A DNA stretch of 64,000 bases from Isoetes taiwanensis (Eukaryota; Streptophyta; Lycopodiopsida; Isoetales; Isoetaceae): positions 40,041,841 through 40,105,840 of the forward strand of contig JAJEKV010000002.1 of assembly GCA_021234155.1 (NCBI GenBank), read 5' to 3'. The notes beneath the pieces are model-generated. The model worked only from the letters and a program-made list of their open reading frames with translations. It made no database searches and had not been told where the DNA came from. The first letter of the stretch is position 1. The number at the start of each line of letters is the position of its first letter. Positions 16,891 through 64,000 of this stretch are shown here, piece by piece. The translations under genes and the position numbers were made by a program.

Positions 16891-18389
16891 ATGGCAAGCG
16901 CCAGGTCAAAGAAGGTGTGGGGACGGTTTCAGGCATGGTATGATGAGATCGTTAGGAAGGAAACTGAGCATAGCCTATCACACCCAAAAGAGTTTGCTCA
17001 GCAACTTGGAAACCCTCTGGACACTACTGTAGTATATAATAACTTTTGCCTGATGGTGGATATAATATCTGAGGCGAATAAACACAGTGACGTTTATGGG
17101 CAGTACATTCAAAGCTTCATGACGGTGGTAGATGCTGAGAGTGTGAAGTCCTTTCTGAAGCTGTTTTCCAAAGGTGATCATGATAAGCTTCGAAGGTCGT
17201 TCAAGAGGCTACCTTCCAATTTATGTGAGATGGGAAGGATAATTTATATCCAATCGATATCATGTTTGCTACTTACATGATCTATTCGGTGCCACAAACA
17301 GATAGTGAGCAACCACAAGTGAGGGCTATTGCAGAATATTATTCACCTGTCGAGGAGCTTTTGATGCAGATAAAGAGAAGGAACTGGTGGAAAAACTAGA
17401 TGAGGACGATGATGAAGAGCAGGAAGATGAAGCCGCGCACGAAGATAAACTTGACAGATGGGAAATCACGGGAACACTGCCAATTAACGTGGGAGGGAAG
17501 GACTACCTGCTTCTCCACGATATATCTTCGGTCACTCGTTTGAGGGAAGACGAGGTCCTTGGACAGATCTATGTTTTTGTTGTAGGTTTAGACGACTTCA
17601 TCGACTTCGAGCCGGAGGTGCCAAGGGAGCTGAACGAAGCTTTAACTTATGTTGGAACTTCAGTAGCTCTGAAAATTGCATTTGATAGAGTCTTGGAGAT
17701 GTCAGAAATGGGCTTGAACGAAGTCTCAGAACTAAAGGTCGAGGGGAGTTGTTCAGGAGTTAAGGATACCGAAAAACTTGAATCAAAAGGGGAATCAAGC
17801 TCCTTCAGGTCTTCTATCAAGATTGCTACAAAAAAGGTTATTGAATCTGACGAAGTGGAGGTATGCTAGCTATAAAGTATCTATTAAGTTTGGTAGTCGG
17901 TTAAGTTGCAAATGAACTTTGCTTGCGTAGGAAGTTTTTGTTGACGATTATTGCGCCAGACATGATAGAGTCACCCTTGGCCAAGATGGAAGTATTGCAC
18001 ACTATATGGGCTACCTTCATAAGGGGGAAATTGTTGTGTTCCATTCCAAGTACAGCCCATTCGGACATGAGGAGGTTTTGAAACTGAAGGCCCTCTCGTT
18101 AATTGGTAGTCACCACCTGTTAGCTGCCAATTTTGATCGAGTGGTGGCTGTTAGGAGAGATATCGCCACCCATGTTTTTGGTGGGTTTAGTATGTATTCC
18201 GTCATTGCCAATAGAGCTGCATTGGCCTTGTCGGGGGTGGATAAAGCTACAATTCGACTGACTTGGGAAGAGAGGGAGCCACAGATTCCTCGTCTTATGT
18301 ACCTGTTGGATGCTGGTTTGCAGGAGTCCGACCTGGAAGAAGTTGATATTTTTGGTGATCTTCATATCTCTAAGAAAATGAAGTTGTAA
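16891..18389 (+). CDS. Unrecognised accessory protein, element A copy (same family as 58644-60162)
   Basis: Homologous along its length to the element B protein at 60162-58644. Shared blocks in order are RLP.....N.Y, [IV].V.G.[ED]YLLL.DI, then DDFID, VD.Y..RH, a GxIxVxHxKxSPxGxEE-type block (here GEIVVFHSKYSPFGHEE), and L..N.D....V.R..A...F. I recognise no known domain. An acidic linker (DEDDDEEQEDEAAHEDK) precedes the YLLLHDI block. The reading frame changes between about 17240 and 17380, from a frameshift or an unrecognised intron. A 70-nt intron at 17861-17930 (GAG|GTATGC...GCGTAG|GAA) is supported because joining it restores EVEEVFVDDY, matching EITEIDVDEY in the other copy. It is flanked on both sides by element A palindromes. 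Function unknown. Confidence 0.6.
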
Positions 18390-27060: not shown

Positions 27061-27712
27061 TCAAAATGTGCAGGTGCTTGGTGCATTAGAAGGAGCAGGA
27101 ACTCAGTCAAAAATTGGGGATCATCAGGATATTCCGATTCAAGATATTCTTGTTTAGGCTATTCCGATTCAGGAAATTCCTGTTCAGGCTATTCCTATTC
27201 GGGATATTTCTATTCAGGATATTCCTATTCCAGATGCTGTTCTTAACATGTCCTGGATCCTCCGAATCAGACTAACGTTGAGGTGGGTAAAAGAAAATCA
27301 CGCGCGCCTAAGCAGGTGCAGAAGAAACAGGTGTTGTGTAAAGGCCCTTCGAAGCTCAACAAGAAGGGCGAACCGTTTAAGCCAAAGTACAGATGGATTC
27401 GTGAGATCCGGCACTTCCAGAATCACGTGAAGTGGGTACTTCCAAAGCTCACTATGGCGAGAATCTGTAGGGAGGAGATTCAGAACAGGTACGCGAAAAT
27501 GAAGGAGGATAGGAGGAGGTACCATGGTTCTGGCAGAGCTTTTCCAATGCCAGAAGAGGTTAATCGATTTACTGCAAATGCCCTTGATGCTCTGCCGCGG
27601 CTGAGAATCACATGGTCGAGTTTTTTGATGTGTGAAGTGTGCCGTGCATGAAAAGAGGGTGATGATCATGCAGAGGGATGTTGCTTTAACGAAATATTTT
27701 CGAGGCATGTAA
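27061..27712 (+). pseudogene. Histone H3-like protein, element A copy (frameshifted)
   Basis: A divergent H3 fold. The N-terminal helix block YRWIREIRHFQ matches H3 REIRxYQ, and LPKLTMARICREEIQNRY matches the LPF-RLVREIAQDF region. An extended acidic/basic loop follows. The last helices (NALDAL..., ENHMVEFFDV, KCAVHEKRVMIMQRDVALT, FRGM) match [40 protein letters not shown] residue for residue in length, once two small frameshifts (about 27.60 and 27.63 kb, the latter a GTGT dinucleotide gain) are allowed for. Upstream (27.10-27.24 kb) is an out-of-frame hexapeptide repeat of the IPIQDI / IPVQAI type. The stop is at 27710-27712. Element A palindromes follow. The N-terminal tail was displaced or lost at the LINE junction. 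Confidence 0.75.
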
Positions 27713-54107: not shown

Positions 54108-54120
54108 TTCTCCCCACCTT
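54108..54120 (-). promoter_or_regulatory. Polypurine tract
   Basis: On the minus strand AAGGTGGGGAGAA directly precedes TGTGACG, the start of the LTR. This is the position of the plus-strand primer in LTR retroelements. A second copy of the same 13-mer lies about 40 nt upstream (54147-54159). Confidence 0.75.
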
Positions 54121-54935: not shown

Positions 54936-56648
54936 TAATCTACACAACCATCGACATGCCTGCGTCGATTTCTTCGGAGATCCCATTGCTCCATGAATTC
55001 CGGGTACTGCCTTATAAGGTCCTGCTTAAGTACCCACGTTGCGTCTTCCACTGGCAAGTGTTTCCACTTGACCAAGTATTGGAGAATTCTGATCTCCTTG
55101 TTTCCTTGATTGCTTTATCAAGGATTAAGTCTGGGACTATCTCTAGCTGCTCTTCTGTCATTTCCAACAATGTTGGTGTGTCCAAGACTTCTTCTGGGTT
55201 TGGAGTATGCTTCTTCAACAGACTCACGTGGAAGACCTTATGAATTTTCAGGTGTGCTGGCAGGTCTAACTTGTAGGATTGATTACCTACTCTCTTGTCT
55301 ATTCTGAAAGGACCCGCCCACCTTGGAGCAAGCTTCTTGCAATTTCCGATGCAGAGCTTTGCTTGTTTCACTTTGATCTTGAGCCAAACATTGTCGCCAA
55401 CCTCAAACTCTCTGACTATTCGGTGCTTGTCGACGATGCTCTTTTGTCGACTCCTTGTTGCAAGAAGATATCCTCGAACCTCTTCCACCAGCTGCTGCAT
55501 GTCGGCCAACATTTGCTGCGAAACCTCTACTTTTGACACAGGATTGTGCCAAGTGTCTGGGGTTAGGCATTGGTAGCCGTAGTTGATCATGAACGACGAC
55601 ATTTGGGATGATTCCTGCTTGGTGCTATTATAAGCGAACTCCACCAAGTGAATAAACTCTTCCCCTGCTTGTTCCAGACATAGTTTCGTAGCATATCTTC
55701 CAAAATTCTGTTGGTCCGTTCCATTTGCCCATCCGTCTGAGGATGATAGGCCGTGCTCATTGACAATTTCGTCTGAATTGTCGCAAAAAGATCTTGCCAA
55801 AAGGCACTCATGAACTTCGGGTCTCTGTCGGAGATGATCTCTCTCGGCATGCCATGGAGCCTGAAGATTTCTTTGGTAAAGAGCTTTGCTGTATCCATAG
55901 CTGTGTCTGTGGTCCTGCAAGGCACAAAATATGCCATCTTCGACAACTTGTCGACCACGACCATCAAGGCATCCTTCCCTCTTACTGTCCTTGGAAGCCC
56001 TGTTATGAAGTCCATGCTGATGACCTCCCACTTAGCGTTTGGCACCGCTAATAGTTCCAATGCTCCGGGAATTCGAAGCTGCTCTGCCTTTGTTTGTTGA
56101 CACAACTGGCACTCCTTGATGTAGCGAGCTATCTGCTTCTTCATGCCTGGCCAGTAATAACTGTTTCGGATTTTGAAGTATGTCTTCATGGATCCCGCAT
56201 GGCCAGCTATTGGGCTGTTGTGGGTGTCGTGAAGAATCAACTTCCTCACTCCTGATGACTCCGGCACGCACAACTTATTCTTGTGGTATAAGAGGTTACC
56301 TTCCTTCTTGAAATTCTTGAAGGTCTCCCTCTCCTTGTCTATTCTTGCTTCTTTGCACAAGCTCGCCCATACTTCCTTGAAATCTGCATCTGTTGGCAAG
56401 GTTTCTTCAATCTTCCTTCCGAAATCGCTGGTGAGCATGGAGATTGCATTGCAATGGACTCTTGTTGTCAGGGGGTGCCTTGAAAGTGCATCTGCTACCA
56501 CATTGAGCTTCTCCGACTTATAGACTATGTCGAAGTCGTATTCTTCGAGGAACTCCATCCACCTTCTTTGCCTCAGGTTGAGGTGTGGTTGCGTGAATAT
56601 GTATTGGAGACTCTGATGGTCTGTGTCAAGTCGGAACTTTCTTCCCAA
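54936..56648 (-). pseudogene. Gypsy integrase with C-terminal chromodomain
   Basis: Frames 56648-55587 and 56031-54936 read as one protein with frameshifts at about 55.61 and 55.10 kb. Order: end of RNase H (LDTDHQSLQYIFTQP), HHCC zinc domain (HDTHNSPIAGHAG ... CQLCQQTK) and catalytic core with D (MDFITGLP), D (SDRDPKF) and E (HPQTDGQMERTNRILE). A GPY-like module follows (WAGPFRIDKRVGNQSYKLDL). The chromodomain (LVKWKHLPVEDATWVLKQ) is recovered in a shifted frame that ends at 54936. The chromodomain marks the chromovirus lineage, whose integration is guided by histone marks. It is inactive because of the frameshifts. Confidence 0.9.
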
Positions 56649-57600
56649 CAGGTAGTGCCTCTAAATCCGTAGTGCCCTGACAACTGCAAGCAGCTCTTGA
56701 TCATGGGTCGGGTAGCGTGTTTCGGCGTCGTTCATCTTTCGTGAATCATATGCTATCACTCACTCCTCCTGCATCAATACTGCGCCTGTAGCAATTTTAC
56801 TTGCATCCGTTGCTACCAGCTTGTCCTTCTCGGGGTCTGCAAGGTTAGGATGGGTGCGGTTGTCAAAGCTTCCTTCAACAAATCGAATCCCGCTTGGGCT
56901 TTCTTCCGCCAGTGCTCCGCCCAATCTTTCACCTTTTTCGCCTTTGTCAAATCTGTTAGCGGGGCTGCTATCTTTGCAAAGTTCTTCACGAACTTCCTAT
57001 AGTACCCTGCTAGGCCGATAAAGCTTCTGACCTCATGGATGTTCTTTGGCGCCGGCCATTGTATCACTGCTTCGATCTTGGCAGGGTCTGTTGAAATTCC
57101 CTCCGCTGAGATCACATGCCCCAGGTAGTCCACTCTCTCCGTTGCGAAGTGACACTTTGACAACTTCGCGTACAACTGGTGCCTTCTCAGCTTTTCCAGC
57201 ACTTTTCTTAGGTGTTGTACATGTTCTTCTAGGGATTTACTGTATACTAGGATATCGTCAAAGAATACTATGACGAATGCGTCTAGGAACTCCCTGAAGA
57301 TGTCGTTCATGAGTCTCATGAACGTTGCTGGGGCGTTTGACAATCCAAACGGCATCAGGGTGAACTCGTAATGCCCATATCGGGTTCTGATTGCAGTCTT
57401 GTGGACGTCCTCTTCCTTGATCCTCATCTGATGGTACCCTGACCTCAGGTCTATCTTGGAGAATACCTTTGCACCTTGAAGTTGATCCATCAGGTCGTCT
57501 GATCTTGGGAGAGCATACTTGTTCTTGATGGTGTGCTTGTTTAGCTGCCTGTAATCTATGCACATCCTCAAGCTACCATCCTCAAGCTCTAGGGCTGTAG
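56649..57600 (-). pseudogene. Gypsy reverse transcriptase and RNase H, truncated
   Basis: RT begins abruptly at [16 protein letters not shown] and contains [31 protein letters not shown], catalytic [10 protein letters not shown] and YLGHVIS. The RNase H start ([19 protein letters not shown]) is followed by two in-frame stop codons (after MQEE and ALRI). The first RT blocks and the whole aspartic protease are missing. The frame fuses to gag near 57.6 kb, which indicates an internal deletion. Confidence 0.9.
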
Positions 57601-58563
57601 CTGCCCGATGCTTGGCCCTTGTCTTTGTAGTATTGCTGCTTCGGCCCACTGTTTGGAGGCCCAGATCCTTGCAGGCTGACGGCCTTTGATTCTGCCTCTG
57701 AGACTGTTCGAGGGTTGATTGCCCTCACCAGCTTCCTTATTTCGTCATTCAGCCCTTCAATGTATCCTTCGACTGCATGCCGTTCACTTTGCTTTGGCAC
57801 ATACAGCCTCAGCCTCATGAATTCTTCCGTGTATTTCTGCACGGACTTATTCCCTTGCTCCAGCCTATAGAACTGTTGCATCATGTGGCATTTGTTCTCT
57901 CTTGGCACATAGTGTCGCTTAAATGCCTTTGAAAATTTCTGAAAGCTACAGCTGTCTCGGCTTAGCTTGTGCGACTTGGCATACCCTTTCCACCATATGC
58001 GAGCTGCCCCCTTGAGGTTTGCTGTGGCCACCTTGCCCTTGTCCTTGTCTTTCATTCCGTAGGCATTGCCATATTCATTCATTTCGTCTAGCCATGCCTC
58101 TGCCTCCATACCTGACCTATTGTCGCCCGAGAACTGCTCGAGCTTCCTTGCCTTCCACCTGAATGCGAAATCTACCTTCTTTTGATAATCCGAGGCCCCT
58201 GCTGCCCTGAGCCTGCCCTCTCTGTGGTCTTCCACTTCTTCTTCCTCGGAGTCGGAGTCCGATTTTGAGCTGGTGTCAGAGGTGTCTGTGCTAGGAGACC
58301 TCCTTCTCTTGCTCCTCTTCTTATCTTTCCCCGACTTTCGAGGTGGTGTTTGCGGCCCTTGAGCGTTGTTATCCTGCCCGACTGATGCTTGTGCTGCCAG
58401 TAGGGCTTTAATTTGTTGAAGTTTCGACTTCATCTGTGACACTTCTTCTTCTGGGGTTAGAGAGCCATATTCCTCGAACAGGATCCTTGCAATGGGTTGC
58501 CTGTCCGGGGTCTGTTCATCTCTATTGGCTCTCCTGTCTTGTTCGACTGTTTTTTGATCTCTA
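57582..58563 (-). CDS. Gypsy Gag (capsid-type), lacking its zinc knuckle
   Basis: The first ATG is at 58442 (286 residues), but the frame is open upstream to 58563 ([17 protein letters not shown]...). There an acceptor-like GATATGCAG suggests a 74-nt intron (58565-58638). The N-terminus is charged with a basic stretch ([11 protein letters not shown]). A retrotransposon capsid region follows ([56 protein letters not shown]). It stops shortly after SGSYSPRA, where an internal deletion has removed the CCHC knuckle and protease and joined RT in another frame. Confidence 0.85.
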
Positions 58564-58643
58564 GCTGCATATCAACAAAACATTTAAAAATACCAACAAA
58601 ATATATTCATATATGTAATAGCTTAATTACAACACTACCGGGA

Positions 58644-60162
58644 TTAAGAATCTAATTTATTCTTGAAATCGTCGGTAGGGTGGGTTATCCTGAAGAATTT
58701 CTTAACTTGGGCTGTTCCTACCGAACGTCCCAAGTTCCTGAGGATATTTGTTGATGACCCGCGCTGCAAGGCTATCACCAACTCCTCTACCCTGCGATCG
58801 GAAATATAGGCCGCGGTCACTGCCAGTCTTCCCTGCCGTTGGTAGGGAACGGCGAAGTCAAAGATGTCAAGCGCCATCGTTCTCTTGACTAAGATGGCAT
58901 AGTCGGTGTTTGAAACCAGCCGAGCATGCCTGCCAAAGCCTGTGAGTGCGATGAGCATGAACACTCCTTCTTCGCCCCTTGGGCTGAATTTGCGGTGAAT
59001 TACCGCTATTCTCCCGTTCAGCAGCAGGGGAAGATAGTATCTCAGCAACTTGTCGTTGTGCGGCGTTGTTGATGCGTCCTCCCCTCGGGCTCCGGCTCTA
59101 TGTCTCCCTGCATACTCATCGACGTCGATTTCTGTGATTTCTTCATAGTCCCTGACCGTCGATGTGACTCGCCGCAGGTCGATCTCGCCTCTTCTTTGAA
59201 CACCTGTGGGGGGTGGTGTCGAAGAGCTTGGCATCAGAATGTTCGTGGTCTTGCCACGGATCCCCATCCGTTTTTGGATGGCATAAAACTCTTCTTCTGA
59301 TGGCAGGTCCCGAGCTTCCATCATTTGGCGGATGCTGCTATACGCCTGAATGTCCGAAGTCGACTCCCCTGTGTAGGTGTCGGCTTCTCTGACCTGGATT
59401 GGGAAGTTGGAAGCCTCCCTATCGATGAAGTCATCCAGATCTTGCTGCTGCCGCAGAAGATACAGCAACTCGTCAAGTCGGTACTCCCTTTCTCTGCATT
59501 CCGGGAGGTTCTGGATGTCGCTCAGGAGTAAGTACTCCTGTCCTTCGACGATGATGGGGGCTAGGCTTGTGATACCTAGCCCGAGCGGGGGAGCGATTCT
59601 CAGGGTCTGCCAATCCTGCTCGAAAATTGGCAGTTCCTATTCTGCTAGCTTGCGCTCTTCTTCCGGGTCGAGCTCGAAGTAGTCTTCTTTGTCAGAGTCG
59701 ACTTCTTCATCCTCTGCTCTTCCTTCCTGTTCCACTTGGTACTGCAGTCGTAGTTGACCCTCTGCTGAAGAGGCTAAGGGGTCTACTTCCATGGGGGAAA
59801 TCGAGGTTTCACCCATGAGATTCTGGGCCCGGTGGGAAAGAAAAATGGCTAAGGCAGCGGTGTATGAAAAATACTTGTTTCTATTGGCTGTCAGGACCAT
59901 GTAATCTGGCAACCTCTGGGCTTTATTGGTCAGATATTTGGCAATGTTCGGGACATCACCTAAAGCTGCATGGGGGAAGCTGTATTAGGGACGGTCCTAC
60001 CCTAGCTTGGAATTCAGTCATAACTTCCCTGTAAGCTGGGGTTGCTTGCAATGTGGCTTGGATATCTATCTCTTTTCGGAAAATCTGAAAAATTGCATTG
60101 ATGTCCGCCTCTGCTACATGTGCACTGGCGCTGTACCATCGCCTAAATTCAGTAGTTGCCAT
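58644..60162 (-). pseudogene. Unrecognised accessory protein, element B copy (same family as 16891-18389)
   Basis: Starts MATTEFRRWYSASAHVAEAD at 60162. A frameshift or short unrecognised intron near 59.97 kb leads to LGDVPNIAKYLTNKAQRLPD. The frame then runs without a shift from 59980 to 58644, except for one TAG at 59637-59639. Blocks shared with the element A protein: RLP, NKYFSYTAAL, an acidic linker (DSDKEDYFELDPEEE), IIVEGQEYLLLSDI, LDDFIDRE, IDVDEYAGRH, GRIAVIHRKFSPRGEEG and LVSNTDYAILVKRTMALDIF. No known fold is recognised. It is placed between the H3-like gene and gag, with its own TATA box 106 nt upstream. Probably a relic. Confidence 0.65.
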
Positions 60163-60267
60163 GGAGCTTGAGTGAGTTGGGATGTCAAACAGTTGCTGAA
60201 GCGCCTAAGGAAGTTGGAAAATCGCCTAAGTGTCAGGAGCAGATCTGTAGGATGCTAAGTTGAGGGC

Positions 60268-60276
60268 CTATTTATA
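60268..60276 (-). promoter_or_regulatory. TATA box of the element B accessory gene
   Basis: On the minus strand TATAAATAG lies 106 nt upstream of the ATG at 60162, within TCTATAAATAGGCCC. The same extended motif precedes the H3-like gene. Confidence 0.65.
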
Positions 60277-60471
60277 GACAAGGGAAAAAAAAACCTAATT
60301 TTTGGATAGGTTGAAACAATCTTGGTGATGGGTGATTCTTTCCTATCTTGAGGTCAAAATTGAGATTTGGAAGCTACTTTGAGGTTTTGTGTATGACTAG
60401 GATGGTCTAATGAACCTATTGCAACAAACTAGAGGTCAATTGGGTGTTGGATAAAAGAGAAATTGCTAGAA

Positions 60472-60540
60472 GGTCTCACACGTTGCGCCTGGGGCTCGAC
60501 CTAAAATTTAGGTTTGGCTTCTGGCGCGACGTGTGAGACA
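60472..60540. repeat. Element B palindrome 1 (69 bp)
   Basis: GGTCTCACACGTTGCGCC pairs with GGCGCGACGTGTGAGAC. Inside is a nested CCTAAAATTTAGG palindrome. It lies between the H3-like gene and the accessory gene. Confidence 0.9.
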
Positions 60541-60673
60541 TTGGGCCTATCTTGGTCAAAACTTGTCCAATCTGGGAGAACTAAGGGTCTACTCATGCTA
60601 GTCTCATCGAGTGGGTAGGATGGACCCCTTACTTGGTTGATTTGAAGCTGTTTTGGTCTAGTTTAGCTATGAA

Positions 60674-60742
60674 GGTCTCACACGTTGCGCCTGGGCCTCG
60701 ACCTAAAATTTAGGTTTGGCCTCTGGCGCGACGTGTGAGACA
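60674..60742. repeat. Element B palindrome 2 (69 bp)
   Basis: Nearly identical to the copy at 60472-60540 and in the same orientation (GGTCTCACACGTTGCGCC ... GGCGCGACGTGTGAGACA). It begins about 140 nt downstream of the H3-like stop codon. Confidence 0.9.
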
Positions 60743-60884
60743 TTCCTCACTACTTGCTCTAATTATGTCCAATTTTACTAAAACAAAGAGCAGTTCTTCC
60801 TAATTCGACCTAACTAACATGAATTATGCACTTATAACTCAAACAAAACACTTTGTATTAAACAAAATTTTATCATTTACAAAA

Positions 60885-61360
60885 TTAGTAAGGCTCTCCT
60901 TTGATATGACTGGCCAAGTGCATATCTTTCCTCATTAAGGTTACTCTTTTTGCGTGTACCGTGCATGCTGTTGCGACTTCAAAATGCTGCACGAGTTTCT
61001 GCTCCGCTGCTTCTTGTAGGGCTAGCAGCATCTCACCTGTTACCCTCATCTCGGTGCTATATTCTTGGACAACTTCTTTTACTAGTCTGGCGAAGGGAGC
61101 ACGGGGGATAAGGAAGCCGAAACTCCTCTGGAAGTGCCGGATCTCCCTTATTGCTCGATTCAGCTTCGACTGGGCTTTCCTCTTCGGCGGCTTCTTTGGA
61201 GGTTTGGGCTTCTCTGACGGTGGCTTTAGGGTCTGCTTCTTCGATGGCCGTCCACCTTCGACAATTCTGACCCTATTCTCCTGGCAATAGGAGTTATAGG
61301 CCTCCCATTTCTTCATGAACTCAGTGTGCTCCTTCAGCTTCCTCTGGTGGACCCTGATAG
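60885..61360 (-). CDS. Histone H3-like fold, element B copy (C-terminal part)
   Basis: The H3 fold is clear. NRAIREIRHFQRSFGFLIPR matches the REIRxYQKSTELLIRK helix, and PFARLVKEVVQEY matches PFQRLVREIAQDF. Loop 1 has the canonical length, so it is not CENH3-like. LALQEAAEQKLVQHFE matches the long helix, and TVHAKRVTLMRKDMHLA matches CAIHAKRVTIMPKDIQLA, ending IKGEPY. A basic linker (KKPPKRKAQSK) precedes the fold. The frame stays open upstream of the first Met at 61316 to about 61360, where it overlaps the tail-encoding frame. One frameshift near 61.35 kb separates the two halves of a single protein of about 410 residues. Confidence 0.8.
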
Positions 61361-62134
61361 GTCTATCACGTATGATTCCTGGGCAGGTCGCAATGCTTTC
61401 TTTCTATCCCAAGTCGGGTAAGGCGGGGGCGCCTGCACCTGCTGTGGCTGCTCTTGGTCTTGTGCTCCCTGCTCGTCACCTGGGGGCTTGGAAGAACTTC
61501 CTTCTTGATGATGAGGGTTGTAATCCTCATCATCCGATTCATCCGAGGAGGATGGGGGCTGGTCTGCTGGTCGTTCTTGAATGACAACCTTTGTTAAAGG
61601 AGTCTTCTTTAGTCTTCTCTTGGGCTGCTCCACGCCTTTGCCCTTGAGCTTCTTCTTCAATTCGGCCTCCTTTACTTCCTTTTCCTCCCTCTTCCTCTTT
61701 TTCTCCGTCTTTTTCTTCTCTCGGTGCCTTAACTTGACTTCATGCATCCTGATCCAGGCCTCGAGCTGTTCTTCTTCTGTTGGCTTTGGATTTGGCTCCC
61801 TCTGTTCTTCTGCCTCCTTGGCTTCTCGCTCCCGTTCTGCTCTCTTCTCGTCTTGTATTTCTCGCTCTATCTGTTCATACACCTCTTGAGTTTCTTCATC
61901 CATTGAGGCCGGAGATGTAATGTCTTCTTCCTCGTCCAGCTGCTGGTTGACGATGCCAATCAGCTCGGATGTATCTTGCTGCTGCTCCTCTGGGATGCTC
62001 TCCTCGCTTGAAGATGGTCGTCCTCCTCTCGCAATGAGTCTCTCCCGAAGCATCTGCTGTATAAGGCTAGCGTCCTGGGCACTGGGGGTTTTGCCTAGTC
62101 GGGGTTTCCTGGCAATCTGTTTGGTTCTGGCCAT
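61334..62134 (-). CDS. H3-tail-like N-terminus plus long charged insert (N-terminal part of the H3-like gene)
   Basis: A 266-residue frame beginning MARTKQIARKPRLGKTPS. It is nearly the canonical H3 tail (MARTKQTARKSTGGKAPR) and keeps R2, K4, Q5, R8 and K9, with T6 to I and S10 to P. About 250 residues rich in E/K/R/Q/P follow, including a long predicted charged helix (EQIEREIQDEKRAERERE) and acidic Ser clusters (SSSDESDDEDY). The frame ends at 61334, within 20 nt of the point where the histone fold opens in another frame. Together they form an H3 with a giant spacer between tail and fold. The TATA box is 115 nt upstream. Confidence 0.75.
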   Translation of the reverse strand: MARTKQIARKPRLGKTPSAQDASLIQQMLRERLIARGGRPSSSEESIPEEQQQDTSELIGIVNQQLDEEEDITSPASMDEETQEVYEQIEREIQDEKRAEREREAKEAEEQREPNPKPTEEEQLEAWIRMHEVKLRHREKKKTEKKRKREEKEVKEAELKKKLKGKGVEQPKRRLKKTPLTKVVIQERPADQPPSSSDESDDEDYNPHHQEGSSSKPPGDEQGAQDQEQPQQVQAPPPYPTWDRKKALRPAQESYVIDLSGSTRGS

Positions 62135-62248: not shown

Positions 62249-62257
62249 CTATTTATA
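62249..62257 (-). promoter_or_regulatory. TATA box of the element B H3-like gene
   Basis: Minus-strand TATAAATAG in TCTATAAATAGACCC, 115 nt upstream of the ATG at 62134. It nearly matches the motif 106 nt upstream of the accessory gene. Confidence 0.65.
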
Positions 62258-62357: not shown

Positions 62358-62422
62358 GGTCTCACACGTTGCACTGGAGCCCCGAGCTAATAATTAGATC
62401 GAGCCTCCGGTGCATTGTGTAC
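62358..62422. repeat. Element B palindrome 3 (diverged)
   Basis: GGTCTCACACGTTGCACTGG with the complementary half CCTCCGGTGCATTGTGTACA. Inner arms are GAGCCCCGAGCT/GATCGAGCCTC around TAATAATTA. It lies about 100 nt upstream of the H3-like TATA box. Confidence 0.75.
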
Positions 62423-62569: not shown

Positions 62570-62582
62570 TCTCACACGATGT
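62570..62582. repeat. Element B palindrome 4, cut by the copia LTR
   Basis: ATGTCTCACACGATG is the left arm of another palindrome and is interrupted at 62583 by the copia LTR start. Confidence 0.55.
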
Positions 62583-63061: not shown

Positions 63062-64000
63062 ATGTCAAGCCGTTTTGGAGCAAGTCTACTGAGTACAGTA
63101 GAGGTGTATAAAGGAGGACCTGGGTTTCAGGTGTGGAAGGATGCTATCAAGCATATTTTGGAGGTAGAAGAGTTATGGGATCTTGTTGATCCACTAGGAG
63201 CAGGAGTAGCACGACCGGTGCGAAAATGTTACACCGGCAAGGTCAAGTAATTTGGTTCCCCAAACACTCGAAGTTTTCTTTGCGGTACGGGATCTCGCAG
63301 TACAACCTCCTGGAGGAACTTACGGGTACAAAGAGCAGTGGTGGAGGTAGATCCGGTCATGCAAGACAAATGGAGGCACAAGGCATTATCACTGTAAGGT
63401 TAGTGCCACTATAAGATTGAAGCTTCGAGAAATAAAAATGCCAAAGAGATGTGGATTTTCTTGCTCAAACATTATGAAGAGAAAAGCTCACCATAAATTG
63501 ACCTATTAGAGAATGAGTTAAGGAAGCTAAAATTGAAGGAAGAAAATGATGTTTCAGACTTCTTTAACAATTTTGATAATATTGTAGCAGACCTAAGTGG
63601 TGCAGGGGTAAATCTAACTGAAAGATATCAAGTGTTAGCTATTGCTAGATCTGTTAGTGAAAATGAGCAACTTGCAATGTTCATAAGAAACATGGCTAAA
63701 AATAGGGAGGAAGCAGAAAATATCATAAGGACTGAGGCAGAACAAAAGAAAATGCTAAAGGGTGACGATGATGAGGCTGCAGAAATTCTCTTTGCTGGAA
63801 AAAGGAACAAAGAAACATGTTTTTACTGTCATGAACCTGGTCACTATAAGAATGCATGCCCAAAATTGAAAAAAGAATTCCATTGCTTCAATTGTGGAGG
63901 AAAGGGGCATTCAGCAGCCAAATGTCCAACTCCAAAAGATTATGGAAGAGGGAAAAGTGGCCCTAGCAGAAGGGGAGGCAGAAATCCAAGCACAAATCAA
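63062..64000 (+). pseudogene. Ty1/copia Gag with two zinc knuckles (runs off the window)
   Basis: Starts MSSRFGASLLSTVEVYKGGP and shows the copia Gag pattern (FQVWKDAIKHILEVEELWDL). After frame changes near 63.24 kb it continues to the window end in one frame with one in-frame TAA (after EEKSSP, about 63.49 kb). It has LENELRKLKLKEENDVSDFF and NNFDNIVADLSGAG. Two CCHC knuckles follow: CFYCHEPGHYKNAC and CFNCGGKGHSAAKC. Gag packages the element RNA. Protease, integrase and RT lie beyond the window. Confidence 0.85.

Follow-up and report, generated by a model that had tools for sequence, protein, structure and literature searches.

A chromovirus-type LTR retrotransposon of Isoetes taiwanensis carries a histone H3 gene held under purifying selection

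The window analyzed here is a 64-kb stretch (64,000 nucleotides) of the Isoetes taiwanensis genome, and it contains an LTR retrotransposon of chromovirus type, in a decayed copy, with a histone H3 gene as the first gene of its internal region. The features of this copy are listed from the upstream side of the H3 gene to the 3' LTR.

62249 to 62257, minus strand: TATA box TATAAATAG, 123 nt 5' of the H3 ATG
61337 to 62134, minus strand: N-terminal part of the H3 gene (from the ORF list; aligned in sister copies and compared at the tips)
60888 to 61400, minus strand: histone-fold part of H3, in another frame of the same gene (PF00125, PDB H3 chains, genomic matches)
60469 to 60773, no strand assigned: inverted-repeat motif, GTCTCACACGTTGCGCC...GGCGCGACGTGTGAGAC, present twice in tandem between H3 and ORF1 (repeat search)
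60268 to 60276, minus strand: TATA box TATAAATAG, 112 nt 5' of the ORF1 ATG
58647 to 60164, minus strand: ORF1, with an acidic stretch, broken into the pieces 60162-59959, 59984-59640 and 59636-58647
57585 to 58571, minus strand: gag (PF03732, E=7.6e-18)
56816 to 57724, minus strand: reverse transcriptase (PF00078, E=2.6e-38)
55590 to 56660, minus strand: end of RNase H, zinc-binding and core parts of the integrase (PF17917, PF17921, PF00665)
55015 to 56031, minus strand: C-terminal part of the integrase with an SH3 domain (SH3_Tf2-1, PF24626, E=3.5e-21)
54108 to 54120, minus strand: polypurine tract AAGGTGGGGAGAA, adjoining the 3' LTR and the same in sister copy C1094
52593 to 54107, minus strand: 3' LTR of about 1.5 kb, with a homologue 5' of H3 in sister copies

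The H3 gene as a whole runs from 62134 to 60888 on the minus strand and is frameshifted. Its tail frame (61337-62134) opens with MARTKQIARKPRLGKTPS, giving the tip MARTKQIARK, continues as a long charged stretch and is terminated by a stop after the frameshift; this tail part has no Pfam match. Against PF00125 the fold part scores 91.5 bits (cut-off 26.4; E=6.1e-26), and it matches solved H3 chains in the PDB at E of about 1e-23; because of these scores the H3 fold is not a chance resemblance. The original prediction had read an H3 fold here and proposed the PF00125 profile search, which thus places the fold above background. It had also proposed a search for intact copies, and three sister copies hold tail and fold in one open frame (C930, 412 aa; C1045, 427 aa; C1033, 423 aa), so the frameshift is private to the window copy. 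The H3 of C930 exceeds the 136-aa host H3 by 276 residues. What had been described as an insert of about 250 residues is indeed present as a long charged stretch, but it is better regarded as a tail, charged and of great length, that separates the ARTKQ tip from the fold. Modelling of the fold was carried out as well, and the prediction for the window H3 part (pLDDT 55) was too poor for use, as was that for ORF1 (pLDDT 41). When the tail ORF was compared with 5.8 billion proteins, no match was obtained at E <= 0.001. Region 255-427 of the 427-aa ORF, searched against proteins of like length, gave four matches, namely CSE4 of Candida theae and three unnamed proteins of CSE4 type, and no element-type H3 from another species.

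The remainder of the element agrees with the earlier placement of the H3 gene inside a chromovirus. Gag, reverse transcriptase, integrase core and the SH3_Tf2-1 domain are found in the window, and a chromodomain (PF00385, E=1.1e-10) is found in C1094 at a position that would follow the C-terminal part of the window integrase. The window gag is without zinc knuckle and protease, and its frame abuts that of the reverse transcriptase (57585-57724). A stretch related to the inverted-repeat motif also occurs at 62358-62420, 5' of H3; the motifs thus stand ahead of both H3 and ORF1, and homologous stretches are present in sister copies. No second copy of the LTR lies within the window. Upstream of H3 there is a copia-type gag (63497-64000), and the start of a copia-like LTR was read by eye near 62579. 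Rfam gave nothing at the gathering score over the whole window.

ORF1 in the window has no Pfam match. Its sole relative at E <= 0.001 in the protein database is a homologue of 501 aa (P0001; E=2.9e-91, 50%), encoded on a 2007-base contig from source lgn; comparison of P0001 with viral contigs confirmed nothing. At the 3' end of ORF1 (58571-58660), a splice-acceptor-like TTGATATGCAG lies directly ahead of gag, and one in-frame TAG is common to many ORF1 copies, standing near the end in C1094 and C930. Gag may come from a spliced or a read-through message.

The window also holds a second, more diverged set, consisting of an ORF1-like gene (16891-18389, plus strand; 36% over 91 aa, E=8.5e-12) and an H3-like fold (27247-27711, plus strand; 36% over 55 aa, E=2e-5). 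This set is interrupted by LINE-like sequence, is surrounded by the palindrome TTCGCACCGTGGCCACGGTGCGAA or variants of it, and has the order ORF1 then H3, unlike the main element. At E<1e-3, the gag-pol pieces of the main element match nowhere else in the window.

The genome of Isoetes taiwanensis (1,658,258,908 bases in 1110 contigs) was searched for further copies. The H3 fold returned at least 150 scored matches, all listed ones with E below 1e-70, and by our own count 28 of the 150 listed lie in open frames of 400 aa or more. With canonical H3 as the query, 15 of the 150 matches listed are loci at 97-99% identity, which we took as host H3 genes after reading four of them, while the other 135 stand at 76-87% and many of these sit in frames above 400 aa. 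A single-copy host gene is rejected by these numbers.

Stretches of 20 kb were fetched around 10 H3 copies chosen among the top 20, long open frames being favoured. In all 10 the window LTR has a homologue on the 5' side of H3, oriented to match; three of these homologues lie beyond a gap resembling a nested insertion. By our own reading, ORF1 follows 3' of H3 on the same strand in eight of the 10 neighbourhoods and gag in five; ORF1 was not found below H3 in the other two. LTR pairs were read in C1032, C1056 and C1094, with divergences over the aligned parts of K=0.023, 0.029-0.043 and 0.036, respectively. C1032, the only copy for which both outer flanks were read, has the 5-bp target duplication GCTCT on both sides. 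Among the eight primer-binding sites (PBS) read, which do not include C1045 and C1033, TGGTATCAGAGC is exact in C930, C1056, C1019, C1078 and C1063, and variants occur in C1032, C1094 and C1026. The polypurine tract (PPT) before the 3' LTR was read in the window copy and C1094. A CCHC zinc knuckle lies between gag and reverse transcriptase in C1063, C1094 and C930, all of lineage A (see below), and two sister copies have a protease motif. Pieced together over the copies, the order is LTR-PBS-H3-ORF1-gag-pol-PPT-LTR. The paired LTRs and target-site duplication, and over the copies the PBS and PPT, are those of an LTR retrotransposon; reverse transcriptase followed by integrase in the window, with the C-terminal chromodomain of C1094, is the arrangement of a chromovirus.

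The association was also approached from the other genes. An H3 match lies upstream within 20 kb on the same strand for at least 33 of the 121 ORF1 matches listed, 30 of these at 1.4-3 kb, and for at least 17 of the 130 reverse transcriptase matches listed; both counts include the window copy, and the H3 partner is one of the 150 matches listed. Among the matches listed, no ORF1-H3 pair is in reverse order, no pair of either kind has its members on opposite strands, and two same-strand reverse transcriptase-H3 pairs are in reverse order, at 7.6 and 13.7 kb. Twelve top reverse transcriptase matches lacking a listed H3 partner were read individually: eight have H3 in the 3-kb stretch upstream, seven of these eight also carrying ORF1 pieces, and four have no H3 in that stretch. 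The linkage to gag-pol that the original prediction suggested checking thus recurs in other copies, together with LTR and ORF1.

Besides the lineage that includes C930, C1063 and C1094 (lineage A), a second lineage of element H3 (lineage B) was recognized at five loci that were read (L045-L049). Lineage B differs in its N-terminal region, which opens with MA[IN]TKS at loci whose start can be seen, and has a core close to canonical H3 (PF00125, E=2.5e-41; PDB H3.3, E=2.5e-52); HMMER aligns one of its lysines with K27. At one lineage-B locus (C985, L051), a PBS lies upstream of H3. Downstream there follow, with order and strand as in lineage A, a relative of ORF1 (24%, E=5.5e-7), then gag (44%, E=6e-34), then reverse transcriptase (46%, E=1e-57). 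The search that found the CCHC zinc knuckle in lineage A found none in the lineage-B stretch. In an unrooted H3 tree, from which L021, L031, L033, L036 and L038 (too broken) and pieces under 85 fold positions were omitted, lineage A forms one group (100/100) and lineage B another (98/95), with B near host H3. H3 may have been captured once or twice. Isoetes taiwanensis thus has no fewer than two diverged lineages of element with which an H3 gene is carried along. Separately, L021 (C1078:335146-338294, minus strand) holds a diverged H3 (37%), ORF1 (48%) and gag (42%) in the same order, a set which is possibly a third lineage.

The lineage-A fold is colinear with canonical H3. Among the residues that we take to be contact residues of the H3 fold, R83, R116, T118, M120 and I130 occur in all 21 lineage-A copies, H113 in 20 of 21, C110 in 19 of 21 and D123 in 20 of 20. 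Elsewhere in the fold, P replaces R63 in 20 of 21 copies and H replaces R129 in 18 of 21; K56 remains in two of 21 and K79 in none of 21.

Across 19 lineage-A tips A1, R2, K4, Q5, A7 and R8 are invariant, T3 is present in 18 and T6 in 16, although 18 of the 19 were found with a pattern that fixes A1 to Q5. Free of that bias, A-R-x-K-Q-x-A-R is present in 10 of the 10 fetched neighbourhoods, one with a changed start codon. Residue 9 is K in 10 tips, V in seven, P in one and L in one. The canonical set of K4, K9 and K27 is not found in the tail, where K9 is variable and no ARKS stretch is conserved; C1045 has ARKS at mid-tail, C930 has ARES, and C1033 and the window copy have AQES, as read by eye. 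The claim that the element had kept the tail residues of H3 therefore stands for the tip, A1 to R8 with K4, but not for K9.

A pattern for MARTKQTAR, which lets AGC/AGT (Ser) pass as Arg and reads the last codon at two bases only, gave 1888 matches genome-wide and none for the reversed control. With the fourth codon freed there were 1902 matches, so that K4 is present in 1888 of 1902. The figure of 1888 is not a copy number, since it takes in H3 genes of the host as well as repeats of the L054 kind. One pattern match (L053) carries the element fold (41%, E=5e-35). Of 100 pattern matches listed, 17 have the L054 spelling and the other 83 show 50 spellings. L054 itself (C4:85200-86530) starts with MARTKQTARKSTG, followed by an intron-like stretch and a fragment of the canonical H3 fold (59% over 32 aa); this class may have arisen when another mobile element multiplied the start of a host H3 gene.

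Selection was estimated between copies, as had been proposed with the original prediction. The 24 H3-fold pieces make 276 possible pairs, of which 141 were used; a pair was excluded if it shared fewer than 60 codons, if its dS did not exceed 0.02, or if it was saturated. The median dN/dS of the fold is 0.170 over the 141 pairs and 0.188 over the 51 pairs with dS below 0.6, which indicates purifying selection. Among the other parts, gag has a median of 0.173 (14 pairs), reverse transcriptase 0.197 and integrase 0.318 (four pairs each), the tail 0.243 and ORF1C 0.280. The histone H3 is therefore held about as strictly as gag. A cruder pN/pS gave 0.33 for the fold in the true frame versus 1.10 and 1.32 in the two wrong frames, and 0.32-0.38 versus 1.05-1.43 for tail, ORF1C and gag. 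Taken with the recurrent linkage and with homologues that are multicopy and LTR-linked, the selection on H3 upholds the view that the element captured an H3 gene, and that there exists such an element with a selected H3 we regard as almost certain. Since selection has preserved this H3, the elements may shape their own chromatin.

The upstream regions bear on how the added genes might be expressed. In the alignment, which comprises eight of 11 lineage-A copies, a TATA box lies at -88 to -123 of the H3 ATG in eight of eight and at -112 to -121 of the ORF1 ATG in seven of eight, the eighth being gapped there. The simplest reading of this arrangement is that H3 and ORF1 would have separate internal promoters in lineage A only. 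At the five lineage-B loci L045-L049 no TATA[AT]A was found ahead of the H3 ATG in the 26-418 nt read upstream, and for that reason internal promoters cannot be taken as general to the two lineages.

Plants keep retrotransposons silent by means of marks on histone H3. The original prediction had suggested that the element may use its H3 to bias its own chromatin or integration. In the reading that we prefer, H3 and ORF1 of lineage A would each have a transcript started at its own TATA promoter and distinct from that of the LTR. The element H3 would pair with host H4 through its H3 fold and enter nucleosomes; its tail, a long charged arm, would present a tip of the H3K4 type and could do without K9. 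ORF1, with its acidic stretches, may be a partner or chaperone of the element H3. Where such nucleosomes sat on element DNA, an active state of the K4 type would be favoured over silencing through K9, and we propose that the element would therefore stay transcribed. We give the whole statement, namely a selected element H3 with its own promoters that enters nucleosomes and counters silencing, a probability of roughly 0.5. Counting against it are the lineage-B loci without a TATA box, the changed fold residues (R63, R129, K56, K79), the four reverse transcriptase loci without H3, the two neighbourhoods where ORF1 was not found and the two reverse transcriptase-H3 pairs in reverse order. The anti-silencing mechanism taken by itself is put forward tentatively, the odds leaning against it. 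Against a simple rule of anti-silencing stand the different tip and possible K27-like lysine of lineage B, the mid-tail ARKS of C1045, and the K9 still kept in 10 of 19 lineage-A tips. The strictest form, in which the element H3 is a selfish variant that builds private nucleosomes, keeps the K4 dock and dispenses with K9 so that host silencing is evaded, is conceivable but rather unlikely; if it were true, retrotransposon-coded nucleosomes would be a standing component of the chromatin of a land plant.

The same tail could instead serve integration. If the integrase chromodomain read the element H3 tail, new copies would be steered to sites of element H3, and it fits this idea that one type of element encodes both a chromodomain and an H3 tail with a kept tip. 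However, K9 is the residue that we presume chromodomains of this type read, and it is V, P or L in nine of 19 tips; targeting is thus unlikely as the role of the element H3.

An effect on the host is another possibility, whereby the element H3 would enter host nucleosomes or compete with host H3 and so shift host expression. A bracovirus H4 provides a precedent (PMC9145170), but a vertically inherited transposon would presumably gain little from harming its plant, and we consider this explanation quite unlikely. There is also a slim chance that the basic histone coats cDNA or RNA in the particle or during nuclear import. Within the element its gene does precede ORF1 and gag; yet a CCHC zinc knuckle is already present in C1063, C1094 and C930 (none in the lineage-B stretch), and the fold contact residues and ARTKQ tip have been kept although packaging would not need them.

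That H3 was trapped by the retrotransposon and is merely carried along is a thought suggested by H3-like genes borne on fungal transposable elements, which one report describes as possibly drifting (PMC3538342). For the element H3 a neutral passenger is highly improbable, given a fold dN/dS of 0.170 that is similar to that of gag, wrong-frame pN/pS values above 1, and an H3-ORF1-gag pairing kept in two diverged lineages. Least probable of all is an amplified CENH3 that would serve to seed centromeres. Outside the element, the H3 proteins found with a long tail do resemble CENH3 (Candida theae CSE4 and the three unnamed proteins), but these fungal-type proteins, the only CENH3 compared, have a longer loop 1 than lineage A, which has no loop-1 extension and canonical ARTKQ tips, and the unrooted tree, with two fungal rows and no plant CENH3, keeps lineage A apart from them.

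Returning to our preferred reading, the silencing conflict would be reversed by an LTR element with a selected H3 of its own making, and such an element makes parasite-written chromatin directly testable. The natural series of H3 tails with a fixed tip and a free K9 further allows one to ask which tail residues matter.

In comparison with plant chromoviruses, the window and sister copies together have the same LTR, PBS, gag with zinc knuckle, protease, reverse transcriptase, RNase H, integrase, chromodomain and PPT. They differ by two added genes, H3 and ORF1, between the 5' LTR and gag and, in lineage A, by a TATA box for each. Among plant elements with an additional host-type gene, an orchid Ty3/gypsy lineage has fixed an AlkB RNA demethylase (PMC9289625), so that the parallel lies in the type of element and the difference in the cargo, which is a histone here. 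The screen in that paper covered 121 angiosperm genomes, with lycophytes outside its range, and found 15 extra domains; no histone is among those named in its section 12.

Histones encoded by selfish replicons are also found in giant DNA viruses such as Medusavirus and Melbournevirus, which differ in being large DNA viruses that are reported to encode several core histones. For the bracovirus histone CvBV-H4, a 38-aa N-terminal extension, entry into host nucleosomes and altered host expression are reported (PMC9145170). Like the element H3, CvBV-H4 is a core histone of mobile or viral origin whose N-terminal tail is extended and whose modification sites are kept; it is, however, an H4 on a proviral segment that is injected into another animal.

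The original prediction knew of no described LTR retrotransposon family with an H3 gene. This holds as far as the open-access literature was searched, in which no LTR retrotransposon with a core histone was found, though an H3-like gene on a fungal DNA transposon has been published (PMC3538342). The latter is the nearest precedent found. As reported there, a hAT DNA transposon of Pyrenophora tritici-repentis bears an H3-like gene (H3L) in 26 copies, with insertions in the tail and possible drift. Both systems thus have an H3-like gene with a changed tail that is carried and multiplied by a transposable element. They differ in that the fungal gene rides on a DNA transposon in 26 copies and has possibly drifted, whereas the gene described here belongs to a plant LTR retrotransposon, is present in at least 150 copies, is under purifying selection and has a canonical tip in lineage A.
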